DNA of 64,000 bases from an uncultured Opitutia bacterium. GTDB lineage: Bacteria; Verrucomicrobiota; Verrucomicrobiia; Opitutales; UBA953. Each line of letters opens with the position of its first letter. The stretch's first letter is position 1. Below, one piece after another: positions 20,559 to 34,101 of this stretch. The stretch is taken from assembly GCA_903840355.1 (NCBI GenBank), contig CAIMFJ010000008.1, positions 124,001 through 188,000 on the forward strand, written 5' to 3'. Under the pieces are notes generated by a model. It made no database searches and had not been told where the DNA came from. It was given only the letters and a program-made list of their open reading frames with translations. The position numbers and the translations under genes are program-made.

Positions 20559-21593
20559 TTAAGCACCTTGAGGGTTAGGCTTGGTCTTAGGCTTCTCAGG
20601 AGCCTCATCTCCCGACTTGGGCGTCGCACCCGGGATAGAGAAATGACCACCCTCCACTAACTTCAGTCGGTCGCGCAAATCTTTAGAGAGGGCCTTACGC
20701 TGCTCTGGGGTCGTCACATCGCCATCAAACAAAACCTTCCCGCTGGGATCTTTAATCACGGCGTGTTTCTTGCCGTCTTTCTCTTCAATCGAAACCGTCC
20801 CGCTTTGATCCGAAGCTAATGAGCTACTCGAAGCATGGGCACCATTACCGAAGCTAAAGGACCAAGACTTGGAAATCGACTGATGGGCCTCGGTCTGCGT
20901 CGTCGTTCCATTATTATTACCACTCAGGTCAAGAGGCGGAATCGGCATCCCCCTCGTGCGCATTTCTTCAAGGCGCTTTTGGACTTCGGGCGGCAAACCA
21001 CCATTCGGACCAATCACGACCACATTGCCTGGGCCAGACTGCACCAACCCTCCTGCTAGGGGATCGATATCAAAGGACTGACCATTAATCGTAACATGAA
21101 CACCTCCAGACGAGGGTGGAGTCATACTCGCATCGGGGGCGGCTTTGCGAAGGGTGCGTTGGCCGGCCTGAGGCGAACGAGCTCCTAACTTTAATTCAAC
21201 CACCTTAGCTTCGGCCCCATGCACCACCGTCAACTTCACGGCATCGCCCGCATGATGCATCCGCACTAAACTTTGGAATTGAGGCACGTTTAAGAGCACT
21301 TGGTCATCGAAGCGCGTCAGGATATCACCTTCTTCAATCACGCCCATCGAGGGACCCGCGGGGTCGACAAACTCCACGTGGATGCCGACCGCATTCGGAA
21401 TCTCTAGTTTACTCTCGGCTCGTACCTTATCGCTCAACTCACTCAAACTCAAACCGGCATAGGCGACTTGCAAGTGACTCGATACGGCGGGGGCGCCAGC
21501 GGCGGAGTTCTCGTTTTTTTCTTGAGCCTCAAGCGTGCCGATAAAACCCGCGAGGGCCATCATATGCAAGGGGACTTGTTGTAAGGGAGACAT
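20559..21593 (-). CDS. PDZ-domain protein, probably periplasmic
   Basis: A 344-residue protein with a weak N-terminal hydrophobic segment (HMMALAGFIGTLEA). A single PDZ domain spans about 65-135: IHVEFVDPAGPSMGVIEEGD, then VPQFQSLVRMHHAGDAVKLTV. The rest is low complexity with a proline-rich linker, a serine-rich patch and a basic/proline tail; no protease triad is present. It follows the ECF sigma factor and its membrane partner on the same strand, so it may be a sensing or effector part of that unit. That role is inference. Confidence 0.75.
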   Translation of the reverse strand: MSPLQQVPLHMMALAGFIGTLEAQEKNENSAAGAPAVSSHLQVAYAGLSLSELSDKVRAESKLEIPNAVGIHVEFVDPAGPSMGVIEEGDILTRFDDQVLLNVPQFQSLVRMHHAGDAVKLTVVHGAEAKVVELKLGARSPQAGQRTLRKAAPDASMTPPSSGGVHVTINGQSFDIDPLAGGLVQSGPGNVVVIGPNGGLPPEVQKRLEEMRTRGMPIPPLDLSGNNNGTTTQTEAHQSISKSWSFSFGNGAHASSSSLASDQSGTVSIEEKDGKKHAVIKDPSGKVLFDGDVTTPEQRKALSKDLRDRLKLVEGGHFSIPGATPKSGDEAPEKPKTKPNPQGA

Positions 21594-21639: not shown

Positions 21640-22065
21640 TTAATAAGTTTCTAAAGGAATCAGCGCCACCTGCTCCACGGGGCGATAGTTAATAAAATGT
21701 GCTTGGGTACGACGATCCTCCCAATGGGTCGTGTTTTCCCAGTGCAGCCGCAAAGGACGAGCAAAGGAACCATCGTCGAGGCGCACAGGTTGCAAGAGTT
21801 CTAAATTAGTGGGACCCTGCTCAGCACGCACTAACTGAAAATCGGGAGTGGCGGGCGACGGTGATGCCAAATGAAAAGCCACCACGACCATCGCCGCGGC
21901 CGTCGTCACGCCCGCAAACCAAGCAATGATGTTACCACGAGATGCGGCAGGAGCATCGAGCTCCTGAGCTAAGGCTGCGATGACGAGGGCCGGTACGGGA
22001 CGGGGACGAAGGTCGCGCAACGCGGCCACCAAATCATCGTCGGCGAAGTCGTTTTTATCATTCAT
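21640..22065 (-). CDS. Single-pass membrane protein, possible anti-sigma partner
   Basis: A 141-residue protein with one membrane segment (IIAWFAGVTTAAAMVVVAFHLA, written here as about residues 59-80) between a short acidic cytoplasmic part and a periplasmic C-terminal domain. It has no zinc anti-sigma (HxxxCxxC) motif. The ATG at 22065 overlaps the sigma-factor stop by 8 nt; an in-frame start at 22107 would lie deeper in the sigma gene. Position directly after an ECF sigma gene is typical of an anti-sigma factor, but nothing in the sequence proves it. Confidence 0.65.
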   Translation of the reverse strand: MNDKNDFADDDLVAALRDLRPRPVPALVIAALAQELDAPAASRGNIIAWFAGVTTAAAMVVVAFHLASPSPATPDFQLVRAEQGPTNLELLQPVRLDDGSFARPLRLHWENTTHWEDRRTQAHFINYRPVEQVALIPLETY

Positions 22066-22561
22066 AAGTTTTAGCGGTAAGTTGTTTACGGAGGGCTTCC
22101 ATCGCATAGCGCCACCGCGAGGCTGCGGTGTTCGGCGAAATTGCTAATTGGGCTCCGATTTGTTCGAAAGTGAGTTCGCCCCAGATTTTCAGGACCACCA
22201 CCTCGCGTTGTTCTGCCGGCAAAGTGGGCAAGCTGTCCAGCAAGGCTTGCTTGCGCGGGTCTTCTTCAGGCTCAAACCATGTCGTCATCTCCGAATCGGC
22301 ATACACCGACTGCTCCCGTAAAGCCCGGCGGTCCGTCTTGCGCAATAAATCGAGGGCCGCCCGGCGAATCGAAGTAACGACCAAAGCATTAGGATCTCCG
22401 GGTAAGTGACGTTGATGTTTCCAAAAACGCACAAATGCCTCCTGAATGACATCATCGGCATCCGCCTCAGAGCGCGTCCATTGCCGGGCAATAAGCCGAA
22501 GCCGAGCCCCGTTTTCAGCAAACCAGGCTCGCCAATCTTGATGGACGTGAGCGTCGGACAT
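22058..22561 (-). CDS. ECF-type RNA polymerase sigma factor
   Basis: A 167-residue sigma-70 family protein with region 2 (about 15-85, SEADADDVIQEAFVRFWKH) and region 4 (about 108-160, LPAEQREVVVLKIW then the helix-turn-helix LTFEQIGAQLAISPNTAAS). There is no region 1.1 or 3, which defines ECF sigma factors. It heads a three-gene unit (sigma, membrane protein, PDZ protein). It is divergent from the desaturase gene that opens the lipid region, only 68 nt away, which makes that region a candidate target. Confidence 0.92.
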   Translation of the reverse strand: MSDAHVHQDWRAWFAENGARLRLIARQWTRSEADADDVIQEAFVRFWKHQRHLPGDPNALVVTSIRRAALDLLRKTDRRALREQSVYADSEMTTWFEPEEDPRKQALLDSLPTLPAEQREVVVLKIWGELTFEQIGAQLAISPNTAASRWRYAMEALRKQLTAKTYE

Positions 22562-22629
22562 GACTTATAGTTGATAAGCGTCGGTCAGCGGAAATTTTGT
22601 CTAAGACCCTCGGCTCCCCAAGGATTAAA

Positions 22630-23664
22630 ATGGTCAAAGCAGTTGCGAAAAAAACCAAAACCCCTCTAGTTTCAACCTGTCCGATGCCCGTGCCTCCCCA
22701 AACCAACCCTGCAAGCCATTGGCTCAGGTCCATCGTTCGCTGGTTCGATAGCGATTACCTACCTGAGGGGGCAGAAAACCTGAAGAACACCCCGAAAGAA
22801 GTCGATTGGCCACGTACCATTCCCTTTATCATCCTGCATGCTGGCTGCTTGGGCGTAATTTGGGTTGGAGCTAGCCCCATCGCCGTCTGGACTGCGGTCG
22901 CCCTTTACTTCGTTCGGATGTTCTCGGTCACGGGTTTCTTCCACCGTTATTTTTCCCACAAGACCTACCGGACGTCCCGAGCCTTCCAATTCATCATGGC
23001 CCTCTGGGGGGCTACTTGTGTGCAACGCGGGGCACTTTGGTGGGCCTACACCCACCGGCATCACCACAAACACTCCGACCAAGAGGACGACAAACATTCC
23101 CCTGTCGTCGACGGCTTTCTGTGGTCCCACATCGGCTGGATCACGAGCAAGAAAAACTTTCCAACCGATTATAAACAGATTCCCGATTTAGCGAAATACC
23201 CGGAACTCGTTTTCCTGAATCGCTTCGACATTCTCGTCCCCTTCCTCTTTGCCCTGACGCTCTTCCTCACGGGACATTTCCTCGGAACCCACGGCTACCA
23301 AACCTCTGGACTGCAATTACTCGTCTGGGGCTTCTTCATTTCGACAACCGGACTCTTTCACGGGACCTCCTGCATCAATTCCCTGGCGCACGTTTGGGGC
23401 ACAAAGCGTTTTCATAATACCGAAGACGAATCGCGAAACTCTTTCCTCCTCACCCTCATCACGCTCGGTGAAGGCTGGCACAATAATCACCACCGTTACC
23501 AAGCCACGGTGCGCCAAGGTTTTTATTGGTGGGAATTCGACCCGACCTATTACCTCCTCTACCTGCTTTCTTGTACAGGTCTGATTTGGGATCTGAAAAA
23601 AGTCCCCGCTTCAATTTATCAGGAAGCAGCGCAGACAGCCAAAGACTCCACTCAGCGTGCGTGA
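22630..23664 (+). CDS. Acyl-lipid/acyl-CoA desaturase (first copy)
   Basis: A 344-residue membrane di-iron desaturase of the stearoyl-CoA delta-9 type. The three histidine boxes are HRYFSH (105-110), HRHHHKHSD (142-150) and GEGWHNNHH (280-288). Hydrophobic pairs flank them. The ATG at 22630 is preceded by AAGGA at a 5-nt distance, preferable to an in-frame TTG at 22597. It ends inside the start of the FAD oxidoreductase gene (8-nt overlap), so the two are an operon. It should supply the cis double bond that CFA-like methyltransferases modify; that link is inference. Confidence 0.93.
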   Translation: MVKAVAKKTKTPLVSTCPMPVPPQTNPASHWLRSIVRWFDSDYLPEGAENLKNTPKEVDWPRTIPFIILHAGCLGVIWVGASPIAVWTAVALYFVRMFSVTGFFHRYFSHKTYRTSRAFQFIMALWGATCVQRGALWWAYTHRHHHKHSDQEDDKHSPVVDGFLWSHIGWITSKKNFPTDYKQIPDLAKYPELVFLNRFDILVPFLFALTLFLTGHFLGTHGYQTSGLQLLVWGFFISTTGLFHGTSCINSLAHVWGTKRFHNTEDESRNSFLLTLITLGEGWHNNHHRYQATVRQGFYWWEFDPTYYLLYLLSCTGLIWDLKKVPASIYQEAAQTAKDSTQRA

Positions 23665-24934
23665 ACGAATTGCGATTGTGGGCTCAGGCATTAGCGGCCT
23701 GGGTTGCTTAAGGTTTCTCGGGCAACACCACGAGGTGACTTTATTTGACCGCGACCCGCGCCCCGGCGGGCATGCCCACACCATTGACGTGACGGAACCT
23801 GGCACCGGCAAACTCTTGCCGATGGACACAGGGTTTATGGTGTTCAATGAAGTCACCTACCCGCACCTTTGTCGTTTATTCAAAGAGCTTGGCGTCAAAA
23901 GCAAATCCACGCCGATGTCCTTCGCCGTGCGGCACGACCCCACCGGGCTCGAATGGTGCGGCTCTTCCGTACGCCACCTCTTCGCCCAACGCCGCAACCT
24001 TTGGAAACCCAGTTTCTGGCGGCTCCTCTGGAAAATCAATCGCTTCAATCAACGGGCGTTGGCGATGTGGAATTCGACCGAGGCCGAAAATTTAACGCTG
24101 CAAGCTTGGTGCGATAAAGAGCAACTCGGAGAAGATTTCTTACACCACTACTTACTGCCGATGAGTGCGGCCGTGTGGTCGACACCGAGCGAGAAAATGC
24201 TCCACTTCCCAGCCGCGACGTTACTGCGTTTCTTTTATAACCACGGCTTTCTCGGACTCAACACCCAGCACCCTTGGTTAACGTTGGAAGGCGGGAGTCG
24301 CACCTACGTCCAAGCGCTACTCGCCCGCTACCCCGCTCAACTTAAATTAGGTCAAGGAGCTCAAAGCGTGTACCGGGTGGGTCACGAAGTAGCCGTCCAA
24401 ACCGCACAAGGCGTGGAGAAATTTGATCGAGTCATCCTCGCCTGCCATGCCGATACCAGCATGAAACTCCTGACCGATGCGGACACCGAAGAGCGCCGTT
24501 TGGTAGGGGCGTTTGGCTATAATCAAAACTTGGCCATCGTGCACCGCGACATCAGTCCGCTCCCACGCACCGTCCGGGCCCGATCCTCATGGAATTACCG
24601 AACTTGGGAAGACGCCCAAGGAGTCCAAACTTCGACGCACTACTGGATGAACTCCCTGCAAGGGTTAACCGACAAAGGTGATTTCATCGTCACCATCAAT
24701 CACCCCGAACAAGTGCAGGCGGATAAAATCATCACCACGATTCCCACCGAGCATCCGCTGTTCAACTTGGCCGCCCTACAGGCGCAAAATGAAATCGCGA
24801 CCCTGAACCAACGCCCCCAACAACGCGTGCATTTTGCCGGAGCATGGCAGCGTTATGGTTTTCACGAAGACGGCCTGTGGTCGGCCCACCGCCTTTGCTC
24901 CCAGCTCTTAGGGCGCGACGCTTGGGAAAGTTAA
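23657..24934 (+). CDS. FAD-dependent oxidoreductase of the CFA/DUF1365-linked family (GTG start)
   Basis: A 425-residue NAD(P)/FAD-binding amine-oxidase-like protein. It begins with the dinucleotide motif GSGISG (residues 9-14) and continues DRDPRPGGHAHTIDV; DTGFMVFNEVTYP follows, then the substrate region. The end (VHFAGAWQRYGFHEDGLWSAHR) matches the subgroup that travels with DUF1365 and CFA-like genes in Proteobacteria. The GTG start overlaps the desaturase stop. It probably oxidises or reduces a modified acyl chain; the exact reaction is unknown. Its TAA stop shares TTAA with the convergent gene. Confidence 0.85.
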   Translation: MRERIAIVGSGISGLGCLRFLGQHHEVTLFDRDPRPGGHAHTIDVTEPGTGKLLPMDTGFMVFNEVTYPHLCRLFKELGVKSKSTPMSFAVRHDPTGLEWCGSSVRHLFAQRRNLWKPSFWRLLWKINRFNQRALAMWNSTEAENLTLQAWCDKEQLGEDFLHHYLLPMSAAVWSTPSEKMLHFPAATLLRFFYNHGFLGLNTQHPWLTLEGGSRTYVQALLARYPAQLKLGQGAQSVYRVGHEVAVQTAQGVEKFDRVILACHADTSMKLLTDADTEERRLVGAFGYNQNLAIVHRDISPLPRTVRARSSWNYRTWEDAQGVQTSTHYWMNSLQGLTDKGDFIVTINHPEQVQADKIITTIPTEHPLFNLAALQAQNEIATLNQRPQQRVHFAGAWQRYGFHEDGLWSAHRLCSQLLGRDAWES

Positions 24935-26223
24935 AATTTCACGCCCACGGCCGCCCGCTCCAAGCCCTCAACCTGTAAGAGGGTCGCAGTCTGTAAACTC
25001 GCTAGTGCCGCCACCTGACGATCAGGTACTTGTTCGAGGCGCGTGTTATAAAAGGTCACAATGCTATTATAGTATTCCCGGGCGAGGGCCAACCGGTCTT
25101 CAGTATCGACCAAGTTATTCTTCAATTCCCCAAAAGACTCCACCGCCAATAAATCTGGATACGCTTCCGTCAGCGCCAGCAACTGGGGCTTCACGGCAAC
25201 CAAGTTACTCGTTCCGCTTTGACCTCGCAGGCTGGCCACTAACGTTTGCACGGCGGCCTCGTGATTCCGATAGCCCTGCAAACAAGCGACCAAGGCAGGG
25301 ATTAAATCCGCCCGACGTTTTAACTGCACATCGATTAAGGACTGCGCTTGGAGGACGCGATTTCTCAAGCCGATTAAACTATTCAGCGCCATCCAAACCC
25401 ACCCTAACGCCCAAAGGATGACATAAAAGAATGGTCCTGCAAAAATGATTTTGTTATCAACAGTAGGAAGCAGGTTTTTGCAAAGAATCGACGAGCCCAA
25501 CGTGGTTAAAACCACGCCAGCCATCCCTAAAAACCAGTACCAAAAATTCTTACTGGAACTTAAATCTTTCTCCTTCCGCGGGCTAATTAAAAACATTTCC
25601 GAGGCCGGATCAGCGGCAATCTCTGCCGCTACGATATCTTGACGCTCTCGTGCCCGACCATGGACGAAAAGCGAAGTTCCCAAAGGAATCCCCTCTTCAA
25701 AAAAGCGGCGTCGGCCCGTAGAATCACTGATAGCTCCCTCCGGCCCTTTACCAAAATATAAAGGGTCGAGGGGCGTGTAAGTATCGTTGATGAAACTGAT
25801 ACACTCGATGTCAGCGCCTTCAGGACGCACCCAAAGAAAGCCCGTTTCATCTTTTAAATAAAACCCCGCGGACTCACTCCCTTCCGCCACCGTGGTCCAA
25901 CCGCGCTTGCTCACGGTGCGCGTACGCGTCTCGCCTGAACCATCTTTATAAGTCTCCGTCTCCCACCGTTGCCACTCTTCTTGAATCTTCCAATTATAGA
26001 GCACGCAGGGCTTCTCGGTCAGATAACTCGTAAACGGCTGTTGCACAACGCACACCCCTTCGATCTGCACTTCACCGACAAAAACACCTAAAGCCTTGGA
26101 TAACGGGGTGTCGTCAAGCAAACGGCGCCGGCGCCCAGCACGCAAAGCGCCGACTAAGCAGCCCAAGGCCAGTAACAGAAACAATCCAGCAAAGAGGAGG
26201 CCGTGCGGGTCTGAGGACGCCAT
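24931..26223 (-). CDS. GIDE-like domain fused to a LemA domain, membrane protein
   Basis: A 430-residue protein with a membrane segment at about 8-28, then a GIDE/MULAN-like (BAM) domain at about 42-218 with EKPCVLYNWKIQEEW and EGIPLGTSLFVHGRA. Two more membrane segments follow (about 227-248 and 260-281). The C-terminal part is LemA-like: NSLIGLRNRV, DVQLKRRADLIPALV, and EYYNSIVTFYNTRLEQVPD. There is no RING finger, so no ubiquitin ligase activity is implied. I chose ATG 26223 over an upstream GTG (26244) because AAGG precedes it. The gene interrupts the plus-strand lipid genes. Confidence 0.82.
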   Translation of the reverse strand: MASSDPHGLLFAGLFLLLALGCLVGALRAGRRRRLLDDTPLSKALGVFVGEVQIEGVCVVQQPFTSYLTEKPCVLYNWKIQEEWQRWETETYKDGSGETRTRTVSKRGWTTVAEGSESAGFYLKDETGFLWVRPEGADIECISFINDTYTPLDPLYFGKGPEGAISDSTGRRRFFEEGIPLGTSLFVHGRARERQDIVAAEIAADPASEMFLISPRKEKDLSSSKNFWYWFLGMAGVVLTTLGSSILCKNLLPTVDNKIIFAGPFFYVILWALGWVWMALNSLIGLRNRVLQAQSLIDVQLKRRADLIPALVACLQGYRNHEAAVQTLVASLRGQSGTSNLVAVKPQLLALTEAYPDLLAVESFGELKNNLVDTEDRLALAREYYNSIVTFYNTRLEQVPDRQVAALASLQTATLLQVEGLERAAVGVKF

Positions 26224-26323
26224 GGCCCTTAGTAAAATCACCACACTTAAAAGGCAAGTCCCCTCACTTTATTAGGAGTGCGAGGTTGCTCCGGGCCAAC
26301 TTCCTCATCATTTCCTTCTGAGG

Positions 26324-27175
26324 ATGGTTCGACTCTACGACGCCCATGTGATGCACGCCCGGTTGCGACCCAAGTCCCACCGTTTCACGCATGCAGCGTT
26401 CGCTTGTGGCGTTGATTTGGCTGACTGGGAGCAAATCGGCCAAGGGCTACTCTTACTCGGTGGGCGCGGTTCCCCCTATCAGTTCCGCGACGCTGACTTC
26501 CTCCCTCAAGCCCCGGTCTTTCAGCCCGAAAGCCCCCTAGCTACCTTTGGCGAACCTGGGCAAAAGCTCGCCGACCGCATCCGTGCATTTTGCACGTCGC
26601 AGGGACACCCCCTCCCCGAAGCGGCGCACCTGAGCCTCGTGGCTATGCCCCGGGCTTTTGGTAAATCCTACAACCCGGTCGTCTTTTATTTAATCACCCT
26701 TGAAGCAGAACTCTACGCGGGGATTGCCGAGGTTCATAATACCTTCGGCGAACGCAAAGCTTGGTTCATCCCCCCGTCTAGTTTGCAAACCGACGCTCAA
26801 GGTCAAAAATTCCTGCAGCTCCGCACCCCCAAGAACTTTTACGTTTCTCCCTTCTCAGAACTCGACACGGAATTCGTCTTCACCCTCTACGCTCCGACTG
26901 AACGTTTGGTCATGAAAGTAGATCATTATGAAAAGGGCGAACTCACCTTAATCAGCACCTGGACGGGCCGCCAAGTCCCCCTCACTGACCTTTGGCTCAC
27001 TTGGCTGACTTTAAAGGCCCCTTTACTCATCCTCAAAGTCATCACCCTCATCCACCTCCACGCCGCGTGGCTTTGGTTGGTGAAAAAACTTCCCTTTCGA
27101 CGCAAGGGGGAGGACATTCAGAGCCAGCGCAACCTGCGTCACCCCTCGCCCGAACTAAAACGTCTTCATGACTAA
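26324..27175 (+). CDS. DUF1365 family protein
   Basis: A 283-residue protein with the DUF1365 entry RLYDAHVMHARLRPKSHRF and the conserved SYNPVVFYL and NTFGERKAW segments. A hydrophobic stretch lies near 215-250. Family members are nearly always next to an FAD oxidoreductase and a CFA-like methyltransferase, as here, and are thought to act on lipids, but no reaction is established. Its stop overlaps the start of the next gene by 8 nt, implying coupled translation. Confidence 0.9.
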   Translation: MVRLYDAHVMHARLRPKSHRFTHAAFACGVDLADWEQIGQGLLLLGGRGSPYQFRDADFLPQAPVFQPESPLATFGEPGQKLADRIRAFCTSQGHPLPEAAHLSLVAMPRAFGKSYNPVVFYLITLEAELYAGIAEVHNTFGERKAWFIPPSSLQTDAQGQKFLQLRTPKNFYVSPFSELDTEFVFTLYAPTERLVMKVDHYEKGELTLISTWTGRQVPLTDLWLTWLTLKAPLLILKVITLIHLHAAWLWLVKKLPFRRKGEDIQSQRNLRHPSPELKRLHD

Positions 27176-28409
27176 ACCTGCTACCGCCCCGACCGATAAG
27201 CCCAGCTTGGCACGTAAATTCGTGCTCAAGGAACTCGGCCAATTATCGCAAGGCCACCTTTCGCTGCAATTGCCTGAAGGCACCCTCCTGACTTTTGGTA
27301 ACCCGACCGTCGCTGCGGGGGCGACGATGCACATCCAAGACGAGAACTTCTTTAGTCGACTGATTTTAGCGGCCGATATCGGGCTGGCCGAAAGTTATAT
27401 GGCGGGAGAATGGGACTCACCCGACTTGGCGGCGGTGATTGGATTTTTTATTCAAAATATCGAACGTACGCCAAACATGTCAGGCTCGGCCCGGCGCACC
27501 TTAGGGATGGGTCTCTGGCGCTTTGCTGATCGCGTCGGCCACCTCCTTCGCCCCAATTCCAAAAAAACCGTCCGGCGGAATATCGCCGAACACTACGACG
27601 TTTCGAACGACTTCTTCCAACTCTTCCTCGACCCGTCGATGATGTATTCTTCGGGACGCTGGACAGGGGTGAATACTTTAGCCGAGGCCCAGAAAGCCAA
27701 AAACGAAAGCCTCTGTCGCTTCCTGCAACTACAGCCTACGGATCACGTGATTGAAATTGGCACGGGATGGGGCGGCTGGGCACTGCATGCGGTCCAAAAC
27801 TACGGCTGCCGCGTAACTTCGCTCACGATTTCGCAAGCCCAGTACGATTTAGCCCAAGCCCGCATCAAGGCTGCCGGCCTGCAGGATCGCATTACCGTAC
27901 GACTCGAAGATTTCCGCGACCACCGTGGGACTTACGATAAATGTGTTTCCATTGAGATGATGGAAGCCTTGGGGCACCGCTACTTACCTGACTTTGGTCG
28001 CGCCATCCACCGCTTATTGAAACCTCAGGGCATTGCTGCGTTCCAATACATCACCTGTCCAGATAGTCGTTACGAACAATTCCGGCGGGGGGTCGACTTC
28101 ATCCAGAAGCACATCTTCCCTGGCTCACTTTTACTCTCCATCAATCGGGTGAATGAAATCATGACCCAGGCGGGCCATTTTCAGTTACACCGCTTGGAGG
28201 AATTCGGCCTCGACTACGCCCGCACCCTAGATGCGTGGTGCCAAAACTTTGAACAAAACCTCGAACGCGTCCGGGCCCTCGGTTTCGACGAAGCCTTCAT
28301 CCGGAAATGGCGCCTCTACTTCCGCTACTGCCAAGCCGCCTTTGCCCACCGCAATATCGGCGTGGTCCAAGCCGTCTACGTGCGCCCCAACCATCCCACT
28401 ATAAAATAA
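27168..28409 (+). CDS. CFA-synthase-like SAM methyltransferase (first copy)
   Basis: A 413-residue enzyme of the cyclopropane-fatty-acyl-phospholipid synthase family, with a lipid-binding N-terminal domain (to about 125), AEHYDVSNDFF, and SAM motif EIGTGWGGWA from Glu196. Two catalytic regions differ from E. coli Cfa. The YSC motif reads YSS (residues 160-162), and EHVG reads EALG (266-269). The QYITCPDSRYEQF and DFIQKHIFPGS segments fit the subgroup linked to DUF1365. The product may be a methylated, methylene or other modified acyl chain rather than a cyclopropane; that is inference. Confidence 0.88.
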   Translation: MTKPATAPTDKPSLARKFVLKELGQLSQGHLSLQLPEGTLLTFGNPTVAAGATMHIQDENFFSRLILAADIGLAESYMAGEWDSPDLAAVIGFFIQNIERTPNMSGSARRTLGMGLWRFADRVGHLLRPNSKKTVRRNIAEHYDVSNDFFQLFLDPSMMYSSGRWTGVNTLAEAQKAKNESLCRFLQLQPTDHVIEIGTGWGGWALHAVQNYGCRVTSLTISQAQYDLAQARIKAAGLQDRITVRLEDFRDHRGTYDKCVSIEMMEALGHRYLPDFGRAIHRLLKPQGIAAFQYITCPDSRYEQFRRGVDFIQKHIFPGSLLLSINRVNEIMTQAGHFQLHRLEEFGLDYARTLDAWCQNFEQNLERVRALGFDEAFIRKWRLYFRYCQAAFAHRNIGVVQAVYVRPNHPTIK

Positions 28410-28416
28410 CTTTCTT

Positions 28417-28800
28417 ATGAACCTCCGACGCCTCCTGACGGCTTATTTTATTTTCGTCCTGCTGGCCATGACTTGGGTCTCATGGCACGCCTGCGTCGCT
28501 CCCTCCATCAGCAGCCTACCAGCCTATACGGGCCGCGGACTTAATGTGCTAGATGGCTACGTCACGGTCTGTGGCGAGCCTTGGGGCTTAGCGACCATGT
28601 TTGATGCCTACTTTGGCTTCTTAGCGTTCTGGCTTTATATTGCATGGCGCGAAAAGTCTTGGCTCCCACGTCTCGCCTGGCTCCTCGCTTTGCTATTACT
28701 CGGCAACTTCGCCATCGCGGCCTACGCTTTGATTTGCTTGGCACAAAGCAACGAATGCTCGCTGACGAAAATTTTCTTCACTCCCAAAGGGCATGAATAA
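28417..28800 (+). CDS. Small membrane protein, DUF1475-like
   Basis: A 127-residue membrane protein with about three hydrophobic segments. The EPWGLATMFDAYFGFLAFW segment followed by an aromatic/charged turn (YIAWREKSW) resembles the DUF1475 family ('PW..AT..D.Y.....W...KE'). The role is unknown. It sits 7 nt after the CFA-like gene and overlaps the next gene by 8 nt, so it belongs to the same transcript. Confidence 0.68.
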   Translation: MNLRRLLTAYFIFVLLAMTWVSWHACVAPSISSLPAYTGRGLNVLDGYVTVCGEPWGLATMFDAYFGFLAFWLYIAWREKSWLPRLAWLLALLLLGNFAIAAYALICLAQSNECSLTKIFFTPKGHE

Positions 28801-29269
28801 GGTCGGCGCCTGGTTCAAGCGACGGGTGGTAGACCCTGTCGTCCAAGAGTTAAAAAAAGGGATTTCGCCCGAAGCCCTTGCCCTCGCTACCGCCGTCGGC
28901 ATCTTTCTTTGCGTCTCACCGATCATCGGCACAACCACGGTATTGTGCCTGTTTTTCGGATGGTTGCTGCGGCTCAATCAGGTCGTCCTCATGACGATTA
29001 ATTTTTTCTCCTACCCGCTACAAATCGCGATGATCATTCCCTTTGTGCGGCTGGGCGAATTCATCTGTCAAGCCGAGCCATTGCCCCTTAACCCCAAGGT
29101 TATGGTCGAAAGCTTTGCCGCTTCGCCGGCGCAATTCATGCGAGAATTCGGCATGGCGGGGGTTCATGGAATCCTAGGCTGGATCATCTCCGCCCCGCTG
29201 ATTATCGGGATTCTCCTCCTCCTACTACGCCCGTTGTATCGTCAAATCGCCCAACGCTGGAAACCTTAA
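28793..29269 (+). CDS. DUF2062 membrane protein
   Basis: A 158-residue protein with the DUF2062 pattern: SPEALALATAVGIFLCVSPI, then TTTVLCLFFGWLLRLNQ, and a hydrophobic hairpin near the C-terminus. DUF2062 domains occur alone or fused to glycosyltransferases, and their function is not established. The start ATG overlaps the preceding stop and its own stop is 1 nt before the next ATG, so it is tightly embedded in the lipid operon. Confidence 0.85.
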   Translation: MNKVGAWFKRRVVDPVVQELKKGISPEALALATAVGIFLCVSPIIGTTTVLCLFFGWLLRLNQVVLMTINFFSYPLQIAMIIPFVRLGEFICQAEPLPLNPKVMVESFAASPAQFMREFGMAGVHGILGWIISAPLIIGILLLLLRPLYRQIAQRWKP

Positions 29270-29270
29270 C

Positions 29271-30098
29271 ATGACCCCCTCACCGACCACACTCTGGCTG
29301 GATTTATTATTTAACTTCATCCTCCTGCTCGGTGGCGGCGTAGTTTATTTCAGCCTCTGCTGGTTAGCAGCCCGACGTCTTAATAATTATTCGATTGTCG
29401 ATGTTGCGTGGTCTTATGGCTTCGCACTCGTAGGAGCCTACTTCTTCCTCCTGCACTTCTTAGGCTACAACCTACCCCTCCCAGGATTGATGATGGCCGG
29501 GGCCACAATACTCTGGAGCTTGCGACTGGGCACGCACCTCGCCGTTCGTGTTTTTGGCCACCTCGAACAGGAAGACGGGCGTTACCAAAAAATGCGGGAA
29601 ACCTGGGGTGCTCAAACCCCACAAAAAATGTGGAATTTTTACATGCTACAGGCGGTCGCCTTAGCCCTCCTCTGCCTACCATTGTTAGCTTCGGCCCCTT
29701 TCCATGGCGCTAATGCTTTACACCTCTGGCACTGGATGGGACTCGGGCTCGTTATTAGTGCGATGCTACTCGAAGGCCTTGCCGATGCCCAGTTGAGTGC
29801 CTTCAAAAAAAATCCTGCGAATCGCGGTAAAGTTTGCGACTTGGGTCTCTGGAACTGGAGTCGCCATCCAAATTATTTCGCCGAATGGCTCATCTGGGTT
29901 GGGTTCTGGCTCTTAAGTTACAACGAAAGTTATTGGGGGCTCCCCGGCCTACTCTGTGCCCTCATTATGTATCACCTTTTAACCAAAGTGACGGGTATCC
30001 CCCTAACCGAGCAGCAGTTACTCAAGTCCAAGGGCGAAGCGTATATCGTTTACCAGTCTAGAGTTTCCGCTTTTTGGCCCCGTCCGCCGAAAAAGTAA
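29271..30098 (+). CDS. DUF1295 membrane protein (steroid 5-alpha-reductase-like)
   Basis: A 275-residue polytopic membrane protein. The C-terminal LWNWSRHPNYFAEWLIWVGF and the late GEAYIVYQSRVSAFWPR define the DUF1295 / 5-alpha-reductase-like fold, which includes NAD(P)H-dependent reductases and isoprenylcysteine-type methyltransferases. In related clusters it accompanies CFA-like enzymes and may reduce a double bond in a modified lipid; this is inference. It follows DUF2062 with a 1-nt gap. Confidence 0.87.
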   Translation: MTPSPTTLWLDLLFNFILLLGGGVVYFSLCWLAARRLNNYSIVDVAWSYGFALVGAYFFLLHFLGYNLPLPGLMMAGATILWSLRLGTHLAVRVFGHLEQEDGRYQKMRETWGAQTPQKMWNFYMLQAVALALLCLPLLASAPFHGANALHLWHWMGLGLVISAMLLEGLADAQLSAFKKNPANRGKVCDLGLWNWSRHPNYFAEWLIWVGFWLLSYNESYWGLPGLLCALIMYHLLTKVTGIPLTEQQLLKSKGEAYIVYQSRVSAFWPRPPKK

Positions 30099-30145
30099 TT
30101 CGACGAGTCATTTGCTTTGGAATTTAATTCTGCCTTATTAGCCCC

Positions 30146-31180
30146 ATGCCGGTGCTCGACCAAATTTTAGCGCAGGACCTCCTCCCTGATAAAGCCATCC
30201 GGTGGGGTATTCGGTCTTTATTAAAGAAACGTCTGAAGGATGAACGTGCCGAGGACGGCATCACGAGATCACTCAAAGTTGATCGCTTTGCGGGAGAATT
30301 ACGCACGATGCCCGTGGCGATTGAAACTCAAGCCGCCAATGACCAACACTATGAGGTCCCCGCGGCCTTGTATCAAAACTGTCTCGGCCCCCGACTCAAA
30401 TACTCGTCCTGTTATTATGTCACCGGCCAAGAGTCCCTCGCGGAAGCAGAGGAAGCGATGTTGGCGCTGACTTGCCAACGGGCGGAATTAGCCAATGGCC
30501 AAGAAATCTTAGAACTCGGTTGTGGCTGGGGATCGCTCACCCTGTGGATGGCCGAGCACTACCCTCAAGCCCGCATTACCGCAGTTTCCAACTCCGCCTC
30601 CCAACGGGCCTATATTGAAGGTCAATGTGCCCAGCGCGGTTTTAAAAATGTCCAGATTATCACCTGTGACATGAATCACTTCTCCTCGGCAGCAGGGCGC
30701 TTTGACCGGGTCGTTTCCGTTGAGATGTTCGAACACATGAAAAATTGGGCCGAACTGATGCGTCGCATCGCTCATTGGCTCAAACCGCGCGGCAAATTGT
30801 TTTTCCACGTCTTCACGCACCGCGACTGTGCGTACCATTTTCAATCCAAAGACGGTAGCGACTGGATGTCGCGACACTTCTTCACCGGCGGCATCATGCC
30901 ATCGAACTGCCTCGCCAGTCGCTTCCAAGACGACCTGAACCTCGAAACCCAGTGGGAAGTTCCGGGCCGGCACTACGGCCAAACTGCCGAACACTGGTTA
31001 CAAAACTTTGATAAGAATCGGGATAAAGTCATGCCCGTCTTAGCCGCCACCTACGGTGCCAACCAAGCTCGCAAGTGGTTCGCCTATTGGCGGATTTTCT
31101 TTATGGCCTGTGCCGAACTGTGGAATTTCCGTGAAGGTACGGAGTGGATGGTGTGCCATTACCGTTTCACCAAGAAATAA
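30146..31180 (+). CDS. CFA-synthase-like SAM methyltransferase (second copy)
   Basis: A 344-residue methyltransferase of a different branch from the first copy. It has TQAANDQHYEVPAALY, the intact YSSCYY with Cys89, SAM motif ELGCGWGSLT from about 123 and EMFEHM at 193-198, the last matching canonical Cfa. It lacks the long N-terminal lipid-binding domain. Close relatives are annotated either as CFA-like or as coclaurine N-methyltransferase-like; alkaloid chemistry is unlikely here. It is the last clear member of the plus-strand lipid genes, 47 nt after DUF1295. Confidence 0.86.
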   Translation: MPVLDQILAQDLLPDKAIRWGIRSLLKKRLKDERAEDGITRSLKVDRFAGELRTMPVAIETQAANDQHYEVPAALYQNCLGPRLKYSSCYYVTGQESLAEAEEAMLALTCQRAELANGQEILELGCGWGSLTLWMAEHYPQARITAVSNSASQRAYIEGQCAQRGFKNVQIITCDMNHFSSAAGRFDRVVSVEMFEHMKNWAELMRRIAHWLKPRGKLFFHVFTHRDCAYHFQSKDGSDWMSRHFFTGGIMPSNCLASRFQDDLNLETQWEVPGRHYGQTAEHWLQNFDKNRDKVMPVLAATYGANQARKWFAYWRIFFMACAELWNFREGTEWMVCHYRFTKK

Positions 31181-31231
31181 TCGACGAGTCCGCGTTTGCC
31201 TCCGAAGGCCGGGCGTGCTTGTTTTGCAGGC

Positions 31232-32161
31232 ATGGAGAGTTTTACCGCAAACGGAGTTCCCCTTGAACGCTGGAAAGTTGGCGCCGCCACTTACGAGACC
31301 TGCCTCACTCGGGGTGCTCGTCTATTACGCTGGGATTTAGACATCCCCGGTGGCCGACGCCAAATCCTCCATTGGCCAGCCGAAGGTTCACTGGATTTAG
31401 ATAAAATCGGTCACGTACGCGGCGGCAATCCCATTCTCTTCCCCTTCATGGGCCGCAATTATTGCGACGGCGAAAAGTTCGCGTGGCGAGCCTCCGATGG
31501 GGTAAAACGGCCCATGCCGCAGCATGGCTTCGCTCGTGACACGGAATTTAAAATCGTCGAACACAGCGCCAAACATGCGGTGGTTGAACTCGTCCCGAAT
31601 GCCCACACCCAGGCGTGTTACCCTTTTCACTATCGTTTCCGGATTCGCTTTGATTTCTTAGAGTTGTTTTTACGCATCACCTTCGAACTCACCAACGAAG
31701 ATCACCAGAACATCCCTTGGTGTGCCGGGCATCACTTTTACTTCACCCTCCCTTGGCACGCGGGCTTACAACGCCGCGATTACCGCGTTAAAATTCCGTC
31801 GAAAAAACAATGGCGCCATGCCGCCGACGGCAAACTCGTGCCCTTTGCCGATTTCAAAGGCACCACGGAAATCAATTTCGACAACCCCGCACTCTCCGAC
31901 TGCATCTTCACCAACCTAAAAGCCTCCACGGTACAATTCGGCCCGAAGTCGGGGGAAGAAGATATCACCGTAAAAGTCGGCGAAGAAGCCATCCCGGGAC
32001 CTTGGGCGACGATTGTCACCTGGACCTCGGATCCAGAAGCAGCCTTCTACTGCATTGAACCCTGGATGGGCCCACCGAATAGTCCGGAGCATAAAAACGG
32101 GCTCCACTTCGTGGAACCCGGAAAGTCTGATACCTTTGTTACTGAGGTATCTTTGATGTAA
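31232..32161 (+). CDS. Aldose epimerase family protein
   Basis: A 309-residue galactose-mutarotase-fold protein with GGNPILFPFMGR, the catalytic-type histidine in PQHGFARD, AGHHFYFTLP and the C-terminal EPWMGPPNS. Members interconvert sugar anomers, sometimes hexose-6-phosphates. The ATG at 31232 gives the normal family start; an upstream TTG (31196) would add twelve residues without support. It stands 51 nt after the second methyltransferase and may or may not share its transcript. Confidence 0.85.
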   Translation: MESFTANGVPLERWKVGAATYETCLTRGARLLRWDLDIPGGRRQILHWPAEGSLDLDKIGHVRGGNPILFPFMGRNYCDGEKFAWRASDGVKRPMPQHGFARDTEFKIVEHSAKHAVVELVPNAHTQACYPFHYRFRIRFDFLELFLRITFELTNEDHQNIPWCAGHHFYFTLPWHAGLQRRDYRVKIPSKKQWRHAADGKLVPFADFKGTTEINFDNPALSDCIFTNLKASTVQFGPKSGEEDITVKVGEEAIPGPWATIVTWTSDPEAAFYCIEPWMGPPNSPEHKNGLHFVEPGKSDTFVTEVSLM

Positions 32162-32170
32162 GCAAATCGC

Positions 32171-32437
32171 TTACTTGTTACCAGGATTGCTGATTGGCAA
32201 ATTGCCCGTCGACTTCTTTTTCTTAGCGGGAGCGGGAGCAGGCGTCGTGTTATTCGTCGCCACGGGAGCAGGCGTGGTCGTCGTAGTCGTGGGGGTCACC
32301 ACAGGGGTGAGGCCAGCCGCAGGGAGCGTATTCCCATCAAAACCACCATCGGTCACTGGGCTAGGGCCTTTTTTGGGTCCCATGCAGGAGGTGAGAGCGA
32401 TTGCTAAAACAGAGGAAACGATCAGGTTGCGTACCAT
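32171..32437 (-). CDS. Small Thr/Pro-rich lipoprotein
   Basis: An 88-residue protein with a signal sequence and lipobox LTSC near residue 18, so it is probably anchored by lipid in the periplasm-facing membrane. The mature part is low complexity: a threonine run (TPTTTTTTPAP), alternating alanine/proline and a lysine cluster (KKKKS). No domain is recognisable. It is divergent from the phosphatase gene, 36 nt apart. Confidence 0.72.
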   Translation of the reverse strand: MVRNLIVSSVLAIALTSCMGPKKGPSPVTDGGFDGNTLPAAGLTPVVTPTTTTTTPAPVATNNTTPAPAPAKKKKSTGNLPISNPGNK

Positions 32438-32473
32438 GGCTGTAGGTTTAAGGTTAGGGGGACTTTACTACGC

Positions 32474-32941
32474 ATGACGCATCGCACAAGCGCAGATTCT
32501 CATCCCTTGGTCTTGTTTATCTGCACCGGCAACTTCTACCGCAGTCGGCACGCCGAGGCCTATTTTAATTGGCATGCTACGCAGCAAAACCTGCCCGTTC
32601 GGGCCTTTTCACGGGGACTTTTAACGTCATTAGTCGCCGACGAACCGACGCTGCTATCAGTTAATACCGAGAAAAGACTCCGAGAACTAGGCATCCCGCT
32701 CCACTTAACGGGCTCGAGTCCAACTCAGTTACAGCCCGAGGACCTGATGAAAGCCCACAAGGCCATCGCCCTCAAACGCGATGAACACTATGAAATGATG
32801 CAGCTTTCGCACCCCGAATGGGCGGATCGCATCGATTACTGGACGGTGCATGACATCGACTTTTTGGACCCCAAGCACGCCCTTCCCCAAATCGAAGCAC
32901 AAGTGCATCGATTGGTAGAAGAGTTTAAGTTAAGAACTTAA
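32474..32941 (+). CDS. Low-molecular-weight tyrosine phosphatase / ArsC-like protein
   Basis: A 155-residue protein with the P-loop FICTGNFYRSRHAE: nucleophile Cys17, CX5R closed by Arg23, then Ser24. The YWTVHDIDFLDP segment near 127-138 supplies the acidic residue expected in this fold. The family covers protein-tyrosine phosphatases and arsenate reductases; no second redox cysteine pair is evident, so a phosphatase is more likely. Its TAA stop shares TTAA with convergent desaturase 2. Confidence 0.83.
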   Translation: MTHRTSADSHPLVLFICTGNFYRSRHAEAYFNWHATQQNLPVRAFSRGLLTSLVADEPTLLSVNTEKRLRELGIPLHLTGSSPTQLQPEDLMKAHKAIALKRDEHYEMMQLSHPEWADRIDYWTVHDIDFLDPKHALPQIEAQVHRLVEEFKLRT

Positions 32942-34101
32942 GCGGCCGAACCAGCGGCGCGGCGTAAGTTCTCGAGGTAACCAGCGGCCTCGTTCAGCAT
33001 CGCACGTAACTCAACCATCGTCTCGTGAGCGACCTCGGCCTTATTGGCTGCAGCTTCGCGCAGGGCTTCGGCACGCACGCCTAATTCCTTCGCTAACTCG
33101 TGAGCAGCAGCGATGGTCTTCTCCTTCAGTTGACGTTTATGCGCGTCTAAAGCTTTGGCTAAATTGTCGATATCACGACCGAGGGTCAGGCTCTTTTCCT
33201 TGAGCTCGGCAGCCATGATACGCGAATCAGGCACACGACGTAATTCTTCGGCTAAACCCACTTTCGAAAGCGTCCAGATGATCCACTTCGTCGGATCGAA
33301 CTGCCAGGCTTTCACGCCGTTGCGGTAATCATGCTGAAACTCGTGGTGGTAATTATGGTAGCCTTCACCGAACGTCAGCAACGCCACGATAGCGCTATCG
33401 CGAGCACTGTGCGTGGTCGAATAAGGCTGACGACCAACCATGTGACAAAGCGAATTAATACAGAACGTACCCTGCTGAACCACCACCGTGCGCAAAAGGC
33501 CGGCGATTAAGAAGGCGGCCAAAGCCGTCATCCCAGGGTGTTCAAACCCGCGCAACGTGGCGTAGCTCCAACCTAAAACCGCAGGCATGATAAAGCCCAC
33601 CACGAGACCAATCCATTGCACATAGCGGTGCTGCCACATGACCAGAGGATCGGCTTCTAAGTCCTTCACGTTATTGACGGGAGGCTTAGGTTTAAGGCGG
33701 AAAAGCAACCAGCCGATGTGGGCGTAGAAGAAACCCTTCGAAATATCATAAGGATCTTCATCTTCATCCACGTGTTTGTGGTGAATCCGGTGATCGGCAG
33801 ACCAGTCTAAGATGGAGTTCTCAAACGAAGCCGCGCCGAACAACGCCACGAAAAGCTTCACCGGCCACTTCGCCTTAAACGAAAGGTGCGAGAAGAGGCG
33901 GTGATATCCGAGGGTGATGCTGAAGCCCGTGGCGTAGTAGTAAAAAATAGCTAATGGCCAGATAAAGCCCCAGCCCTCTACTTGGGAGTACTTAGTCCAC
34001 AGGAACCATGGTACAACGGTGAGTGACAATAAAGCCGTGCCGATCAGGAAGATCGAGGTGACCCATTCGATGCGATAAATTGGGAAGTTTTTGAACTTCA
34101 T
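32938..34101 (-). CDS. Acyl-CoA desaturase with C-terminal helical tail (second copy)
   Basis: A 387-residue membrane desaturase with histidine boxes HRLFSH (67-72), HRIHHKH (104-110) and GEGYHNYHH (245-253). It is not a close copy of the desaturase at 22630. The core ends near residue 295 and is followed by ~90 residues of alanine/lysine/glutamate-rich helix (LAKALDAHKRQLKEKTIAAA and onward), which should form a coiled coil or amphipathic helix. Such a tail is not part of the family core. It is transcribed alone from the 113-nt gap before the next gene. Confidence 0.93.
   Translation of the reverse strand: MKFKNFPIYRIEWVTSIFLIGTALLSLTVVPWFLWTKYSQVEGWGFIWPLAIFYYYATGFSITLGYHRLFSHLSFKAKWPVKLFVALFGAASFENSILDWSADHRIHHKHVDEDEDPYDISKGFFYAHIGWLLFRLKPKPPVNNVKDLEADPLVMWQHRYVQWIGLVVGFIMPAVLGWSYATLRGFEHPGMTALAAFLIAGLLRTVVVQQGTFCINSLCHMVGRQPYSTTHSARDSAIVALLTFGEGYHNYHHEFQHDYRNGVKAWQFDPTKWIIWTLSKVGLAEELRRVPDSRIMAAELKEKSLTLGRDIDNLAKALDAHKRQLKEKTIAAAHELAKELGVRAEALREAAANKAEVAHETMVELRAMLNEAAGYLENLRRAAGSAA

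Follow-up and report, generated by a model that had tools for sequence, protein, structure and literature searches.

We identified a gene cluster with which an uncultured Opitutia bacterium (Verrucomicrobiota) probably builds methylated furan fatty acids, most likely in dimethylated form, on its membrane phospholipids. The cluster occupies positions 22681-31180 of a 64,000-nucleotide stretch of contig CAIMFJ010000008.1 (positions 124,001 to 188,000, forward strand; hereafter the window), which comes from a genome of 2.27 Mb in 8 contigs that is 99% complete. It codes for an acyl desaturase, for orthologues of the furan fatty acid enzymes UfaD, UfaO, UfaM and FufM, and for DUF1475-like, DUF2062 and DUF1295 proteins (Table 1). 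The four orthologues are found together within one 7.5-kb stretch. Furan fatty acids are antioxidant membrane lipids that are present in plants and accumulate in fish and human diets. To our knowledge, the bacterial pathway for their synthesis has been worked out in two alpha-proteobacteria only.

A first-pass annotation of this region had related it to the methylated and furan fatty acid chemistry of Rhodobacter, and the presence of UfaD, UfaO, UfaM and FufM orthologues supports that idea well. Lemke et al. 2020 (PMC7380195) showed that UfaM, an S-adenosylmethionine (SAM)-dependent methylase, UfaD, a flavin adenine dinucleotide (FAD)-dependent desaturase, and the DUF1365 protein UfaO suffice for making the monomethyl furan fatty acid 9M5-FuFA. 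The same study reports that the ring oxygen derives from O2 and that FufM from R. palustris adds a second methyl group to the furan acid. Rhodopseudomonas genomes were retrieved with a neutral query on light harvesting and then searched with the window proteins. The UfaD query matched a single protein per genome in four Rhodopseudomonas genomes, and in the two genomes for which wider loci were examined the match adjoins DUF1365 and CMAS genes. Window UfaD keeps the GxGxxG and GFHEDG residues. The DUF1365 protein, whose gene adjoins that of UfaD in the cluster order, contains all of the invariant residues common to R. palustris UfaO (H11, R13, N139, T140, K170, S175 and P176), and we propose that it is an O2-dependent furan-ring former.

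The two cyclopropane fatty acid (CFA) synthase-like methylases of the cluster fall into different clades. Methylase 1 is 39% identical to R. palustris UfaM, 29% to the other CMAS paralogue of that organism and 31% to E. coli Cfa, and a maximum-likelihood tree placed it within the UfaM clade (support 96/87), apart from Cfa. It resembles E. coli Cfa in its fold family and at the catalytic Glu239 and Tyr317 positions, but the bicarbonate-site residue His266, which a canonical CFA synthase keeps, is replaced by Gln in methylase 1, as it is in all UfaM-type proteins (87/87, methylase 1 included). Methylase 2 is 48-50% (about 49%) identical to Rhodopseudomonas FufM and only ~21% identical to UfaM; R. 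palustris FufM was taken to be the CMAS paralogue more distant from UfaM, following the description in PMC7380195 and not a locus tag. In the tree, methylase 2 and FufM form a clade with support of 100/100, apart from UfaM and Cfa. All FufM-type proteins, methylase 2 included, keep His266 and have Phe at the position of Cfa Ile268. Judged by sequence, the orthology of the window proteins to UfaM, UfaD, UfaO and FufM is well supported.

We followed the gene order through a phylum-wide draw of 388 genomes. DUF1365 was present in 88 of them, and wide loci were taken for 84; genes were counted when they lay within 9.5 kb of DUF1365, and contig ends make these counts lower bounds. UfaD genes were found in 78 of the 84 loci, UfaM in 68, FufM in 53, DUF1295 and the des1-type desaturase in 45 each, the DUF1475-like gene in 26 (placed between methylase 1 and DUF2062), and DUF2062 in 25. 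UfaD, UfaO and UfaM occurred together in 63 loci and were joined by FufM in 42; the six core genes, which add DUF1295 and the desaturase, were complete in 29. The commonest arrangement matches the window order exactly (13 loci), with four more loci differing by the absence of the desaturase and three by the absence of DUF2062. As an internal negative control, six genes that flank or interrupt the cluster in the window's own family, f1 (encoding an epimerase, a phosphatase, a PDZ-domain protein, a LemA/GIDE-domain protein, a 155-residue protein and the f1 extracytoplasmic function (ECF) sigma factor), were found in none of 82 loci outside that family. Gene order confined to close relatives, the outcome that the first-pass annotation had regarded as fatal to its idea, is not what we observed: the same order recurs in other families and other classes and on an Acinetobacter plasmid. 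That plasmid (Acinetobacter piscicola pYH12207-1, locus L035) shares with the window the order desaturase, FAD enzyme, DUF1365, CFA-like methylase, DUF1295, methylase 2, but it lacks the DUF1475-like and DUF2062 genes, is annotated by domain only and has histidine kinase and lipocalin genes adjoining the set. Rearranged versions of the cluster occur on Burkholderia, Cupriavidus, Rhizobium and Streptomyces plasmids.

The window genome encodes just two FA_desaturase proteins and, above the Pfam cut-off, just two CMAS proteins; all four map to this locus. Because of this concentration, and because the set recurs across the phylum, the grouping is not a product of chance.

Comparison with characterized systems places the window cluster alongside the R. 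sphaeroides/R. palustris pathway described in PMC7380195. Orthologues of all four enzymes are present, UfaD, UfaO and UfaM are adjacent as in R. palustris, and DUF1295 stands beside FufM, as it does in the R. palustris relatives. The window differs in holding everything in one locus, together with a dedicated desaturase and the DUF1475-like and DUF2062 genes. Its lineage is also distant, its regulation is not of the ECF11/ChrR type, and in its genus the cluster is split by the LemA/GIDE gene. The plant proteins AtUFAMD1, AtUFAO1 and LIME1/AtFUFM1 represent the same three functional families as the window proteins (PMC10940516); plants fuse UfaM to UfaD, whereas the two are separate in the window and the fusions in the phylum-wide draw join UfaO to UfaM.

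By analogy with these systems, we infer the reactions of UfaM, UfaD, UfaO and FufM in the window organism, along with the role of the desaturase and the regulation. The desaturase des1, with or without a second desaturase (des2), would act on a saturated acyl chain and create a cis double bond in it. UfaM would use SAM to methylate the chain and shift the double bond, UfaD would create a second, conjugated double bond, and UfaO would add O2-derived oxygen and close the furan ring. FufM would then place a second methyl group on the ring. An assisting role may fall to DUF1295 and, less securely, to the DUF1475-like and DUF2062 proteins. If des1 acts as a Delta9 desaturase on 18:0 and the regiochemistry of R. 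sphaeroides applies, the ring would span C8-C11 (7D7-type) and not C10-C13 (9D5).

Several observations weigh against this reading. Identities to the R. palustris proteins are modest (28-29% for UfaO, 35-37% for UfaD), and even for R. sphaeroides UfaO neither a cofactor nor a mechanism has been established. The His-to-Gln change at Cfa position 266 also occurs in plant enzymes that produce cyclopropane acids, and it therefore marks a clade and not a product. Methylase 2 was seen at six of the 11 f1 loci and not at the other five, in part because of contig ends; in at least three of the five the region is partly covered. The dimethyl step is therefore probably not universal even in family f1, and some species may make a monomethyl product. 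Finally, co-transcription of the cluster is broken by the LemA/GIDE gene.

The most durable alternative, which we nevertheless consider improbable, is that the end products are acyl chains with a methyl branch and one or two double bonds (or cyclopropane chains) and that the UfaO and FufM homologues act elsewhere. UfaM alone produces 11-methyl-12-octadecenoate in R. sphaeroides (PMC7380195), Halomonas ufaM does the same in E. coli (PMC12089945), and UfaO is the least conserved member of the set. Against such an end product, however, UfaO lies next to UfaD at almost all loci, 12 loci fuse it to UfaM, and it retains its invariant residues in the window, while FufM-type proteins accompany UfaD, UfaO and UfaM in half of the 84 loci. 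There is still less reason to think that methylase 2 is an N-methyltransferase or an enzyme of another lipid, leaving only a monomethyl furan acid as the product. Its top PDB match by sequence is indeed coclaurine N-methyltransferase (6gkv, E 5.4e-71), but methylase 2 shares its coclaurine N-methyltransferase-like clade with R. palustris FufM, to which it is 49% identical, and the coclaurine N-methyltransferase-like LIME1 of Arabidopsis is the plant counterpart of FufM (38% identity; PMC10940516). Methylase 2 also accompanies UfaD, UfaO and UfaM across many families. A BfaA/BfaB-type route to 10-methyl branched saturated acids, in which methylation is followed by FAD-linked reduction, likewise combines a CFA-like methylase and an FAD enzyme (PMC5660069), but it is highly unlikely here: the window FAD protein is an Amino_oxidase family member orthologous to UfaD, a desaturating enzyme, whereas the published account of BfaA presents it as a MurB-like, FAD-linked oxidoreductase (PMC5660069), and BfaAB sets, by description, lack DUF1365.

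Dimethyl furan synthesis remains our preferred interpretation. UfaO and UfaM are fused into single proteins, mostly of ~660 residues, at 12 loci (L190, L191, L193, L194, L196, L203, L222, L223, L225, L238, L244 and L264), and these fusions support direct hand-over from methylation to ring formation. FufM, UfaD and UfaO occur without a nearby UfaM at L242, L243, L245, L247, L249, L252 and L253. At L246 and L254, the desaturase and DUF1295 are grouped with UfaM, apart from the other genes and on the opposite strand. Chalcone isomerase-like genes lie near furan clusters at L202, L211, L223, L242, L245, L249, L266, L033 and L036, as they do in Burkholderia and Cupriavidus. Lipocalin genes lie near some other furan clusters.

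The UfaO profile found no relatives in the PDB, and no DUF1365 relative was found in viral contigs. Single-sequence models were too poor for fold searches (predicted local distance difference test scores of 42 for UfaO and 54 for DUF1295).

Table 1. Features of the furan fatty acid cluster and its immediate surroundings in the window.
Feature	Position	Strand	Basis
155-residue protein overlapping the sigma factor gene	21640..22107	-	No Pfam match; one hydrophobic stretch (58-82); no Cys
ECF sigma factor, divergent from des1, candidate regulator	22058..22561	-	Sigma70_r2 and r4_2 above cut-off
ECF/desaturase intergenic region with conserved element	22562..22680	.	Alignment of nine f1 genomes
Acyl desaturase des1	22681..23664 (TTG-start call: 22597-23664)	+	PF00487 FA_desaturase
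UfaD orthologue (FAD-dependent desaturase of methylated acyl chains)	23657..24934	+	PF01593 Amino_oxidase
LemA/GIDE-domain protein, 437 residues	24931..26244	-	PF04011 and PF12483
UfaO orthologue (DUF1365)	26324..27175	+	PF07103, 173 bits
Methylase 1, UfaM orthologue (SAM-dependent acyl methylase)	27168..28409	+	CMAS, 262 bits
DUF1475-like small hydrophobic protein	28417..28800	+	PF07343, 21.4 bits, just below the 22.3 cut-off
DUF2062 membrane protein	28793..29269	+	PF09835
DUF1295 membrane protein	29271..30098	+	PF06966, 221 bits; PF02544, 28.3 bits, above its cut-off
Methylase 2, FufM orthologue (SAM-dependent methylase giving dimethyl furan)	30146..31180	+	CMAS, 138 bits
Second desaturase des2, Delta9-like	32938..34101	-	PF00487 FA_desaturase

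All of the genes that the first-pass annotation named at 22058-34101 are present, with Pfam matches mostly above the curated cut-offs, and the tight spacing it described holds (-8, -8, +7, -8, +1 and +47 nt between successive cluster genes). It had omitted the LemA/GIDE gene, which sits on the opposite strand between the FAD gene and DUF1365. This gene lies within the cluster at 10 of 11 f1 loci and at 0 of 82 other loci, and it was not found in the sister genus (L180); it is probably a genus-level insertion outside the furan pathway. Because it splits the cluster, the genes do not form one uninterrupted operon. A transcript from des1 cannot simply continue into DUF1365, and a separate promoter would therefore be needed in the 79-bp gap before position 26324. 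An Rfam scan of the window returned no RNA families.

The start of des1 is probably the ATG at 22681 and not the TTG at 22597, because nine f1 genomes align with a conserved ATG at this position while the upstream DNA diverges as non-coding sequence. All three His boxes of des1 are intact, and their residues are near-invariant across 62 homologues. We propose that des1 supplies the monounsaturated acyl substrate. No FabA above the cut-off was found in the genome, and the desaturases are thus the likely source of unsaturation. It is possible that des2 supplies substrate as well; its synteny with the cluster is limited to f1 loci. Cluster membership of the second desaturase, the epimerase and the phosphatase is not supported, as they are neighbours in family f1 alone. 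We rejected des2, the epimerase, the phosphatase, the PDZ-domain protein and the LemA protein as parts of the pathway, as none has conserved linkage to the module beyond that family.

The ECF sigma factor and its 155-residue partner are kept at the locus in family f1 only. The partner's features suggest a putative non-zinc anti-sigma factor. The RpoE-ChrR analogy drawn earlier does not hold in the strict sense: the partner contains no Cys and so lacks the ChrR zinc motif, and the sigma factor is 28% identical to Rhizobium RpoE. Membership of the RpoE-ChrR (ECF11) group was rejected on the anti-sigma sequence. A gene for a PDZ-domain protein (20559-21593), downstream of the 155-residue protein, is kept alongside in family f1. 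The intergenic region between the ECF and desaturase genes contains a 17-nt element, GTCAAAGCAGTTGCGAA, at 22633-22649 that is conserved across family f1. Its 15-nt core has a single exact copy in the genome, and relaxed matches to this 15-mer were no commoner than those to a reversed control (43/43 vs 59/57), so that a regulon could not be drawn. A different ECF gene, assigned by Pfam, adjoins the desaturase in family f39 (L199:2499-3065, L226:2983-3564 and L257:3215-3799), which suggests that ECF control has been recruited repeatedly to furan clusters. The clusters of Burkholderia, Rhizobium and Streptomyces also have ECF or anti-sigma genes as neighbours. Elsewhere, furan-lipid genes respond to singlet oxygen through sigma-E (PMC6852236) and to blue light (PMC9758184). 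By analogy, a stress-linked role for the window cluster is plausible.

The DUF1295 gene lies directly 5' of methylase 2 in 36 loci and, in the two R. palustris relatives inspected, adjoins FufM. Among the strains listed in PMC7380195 is an RPA0923 mutant, which bears on this R. palustris gene. The C-terminal half of the protein is distantly related to 5-alpha-steroid reductases and isoprenylcysteine methyltransferases, with profile matches to 7c83, 7bw1 and 4a2n. D172 and N201 are present in 61 of 61 sequences and E205 in 54 of 61, and these residues align with the Asp, Asn and Glu of solved steroid reductases. We propose that DUF1295 is the likeliest missing partner of fufM and an extra pathway enzyme. 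Dioxoenes are alpha,beta-unsaturated diketones, and a reductase of the 5-alpha-steroid kind could therefore act on them. Furan acids are oxidized to dioxoenes (PMC12595405), and in Chlamydomonas singlet oxygen induces DUF1295, DUF1365, CFA1 and CFA2 genes together under SAK1 (PMC4067076). A speculative extension, to which we give little weight, is that DUF1295 is a conserved fifth enzyme, an NADPH-dependent reductase that converts the dioxoene (ene-dione) of an oxidized furan lipid to a 1,4-diketone, which would lose water and re-close the furan. If this is true, the cell would use DUF1295 to recycle its sacrificial furan-lipid antioxidant rather than spend it.

We found no report of a furan fatty acid pathway in Verrucomicrobiota in the portions of the literature consulted, where the five papers pairing both topics were, by title and opening lines of the abstract, diet, gut-microbiota or serum-metabolite studies. 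If our assignment is correct, a large, mainly uncultured bacterial group has the complete dimethyl pathway at a single locus and could be an overlooked source of these lipids. The locus would also provide a compact gene set for heterologous expression, and its conservation yields candidates for missing parts of the pathway: DUF1295, the DUF1475-like and DUF2062 proteins, and a dedicated desaturase.

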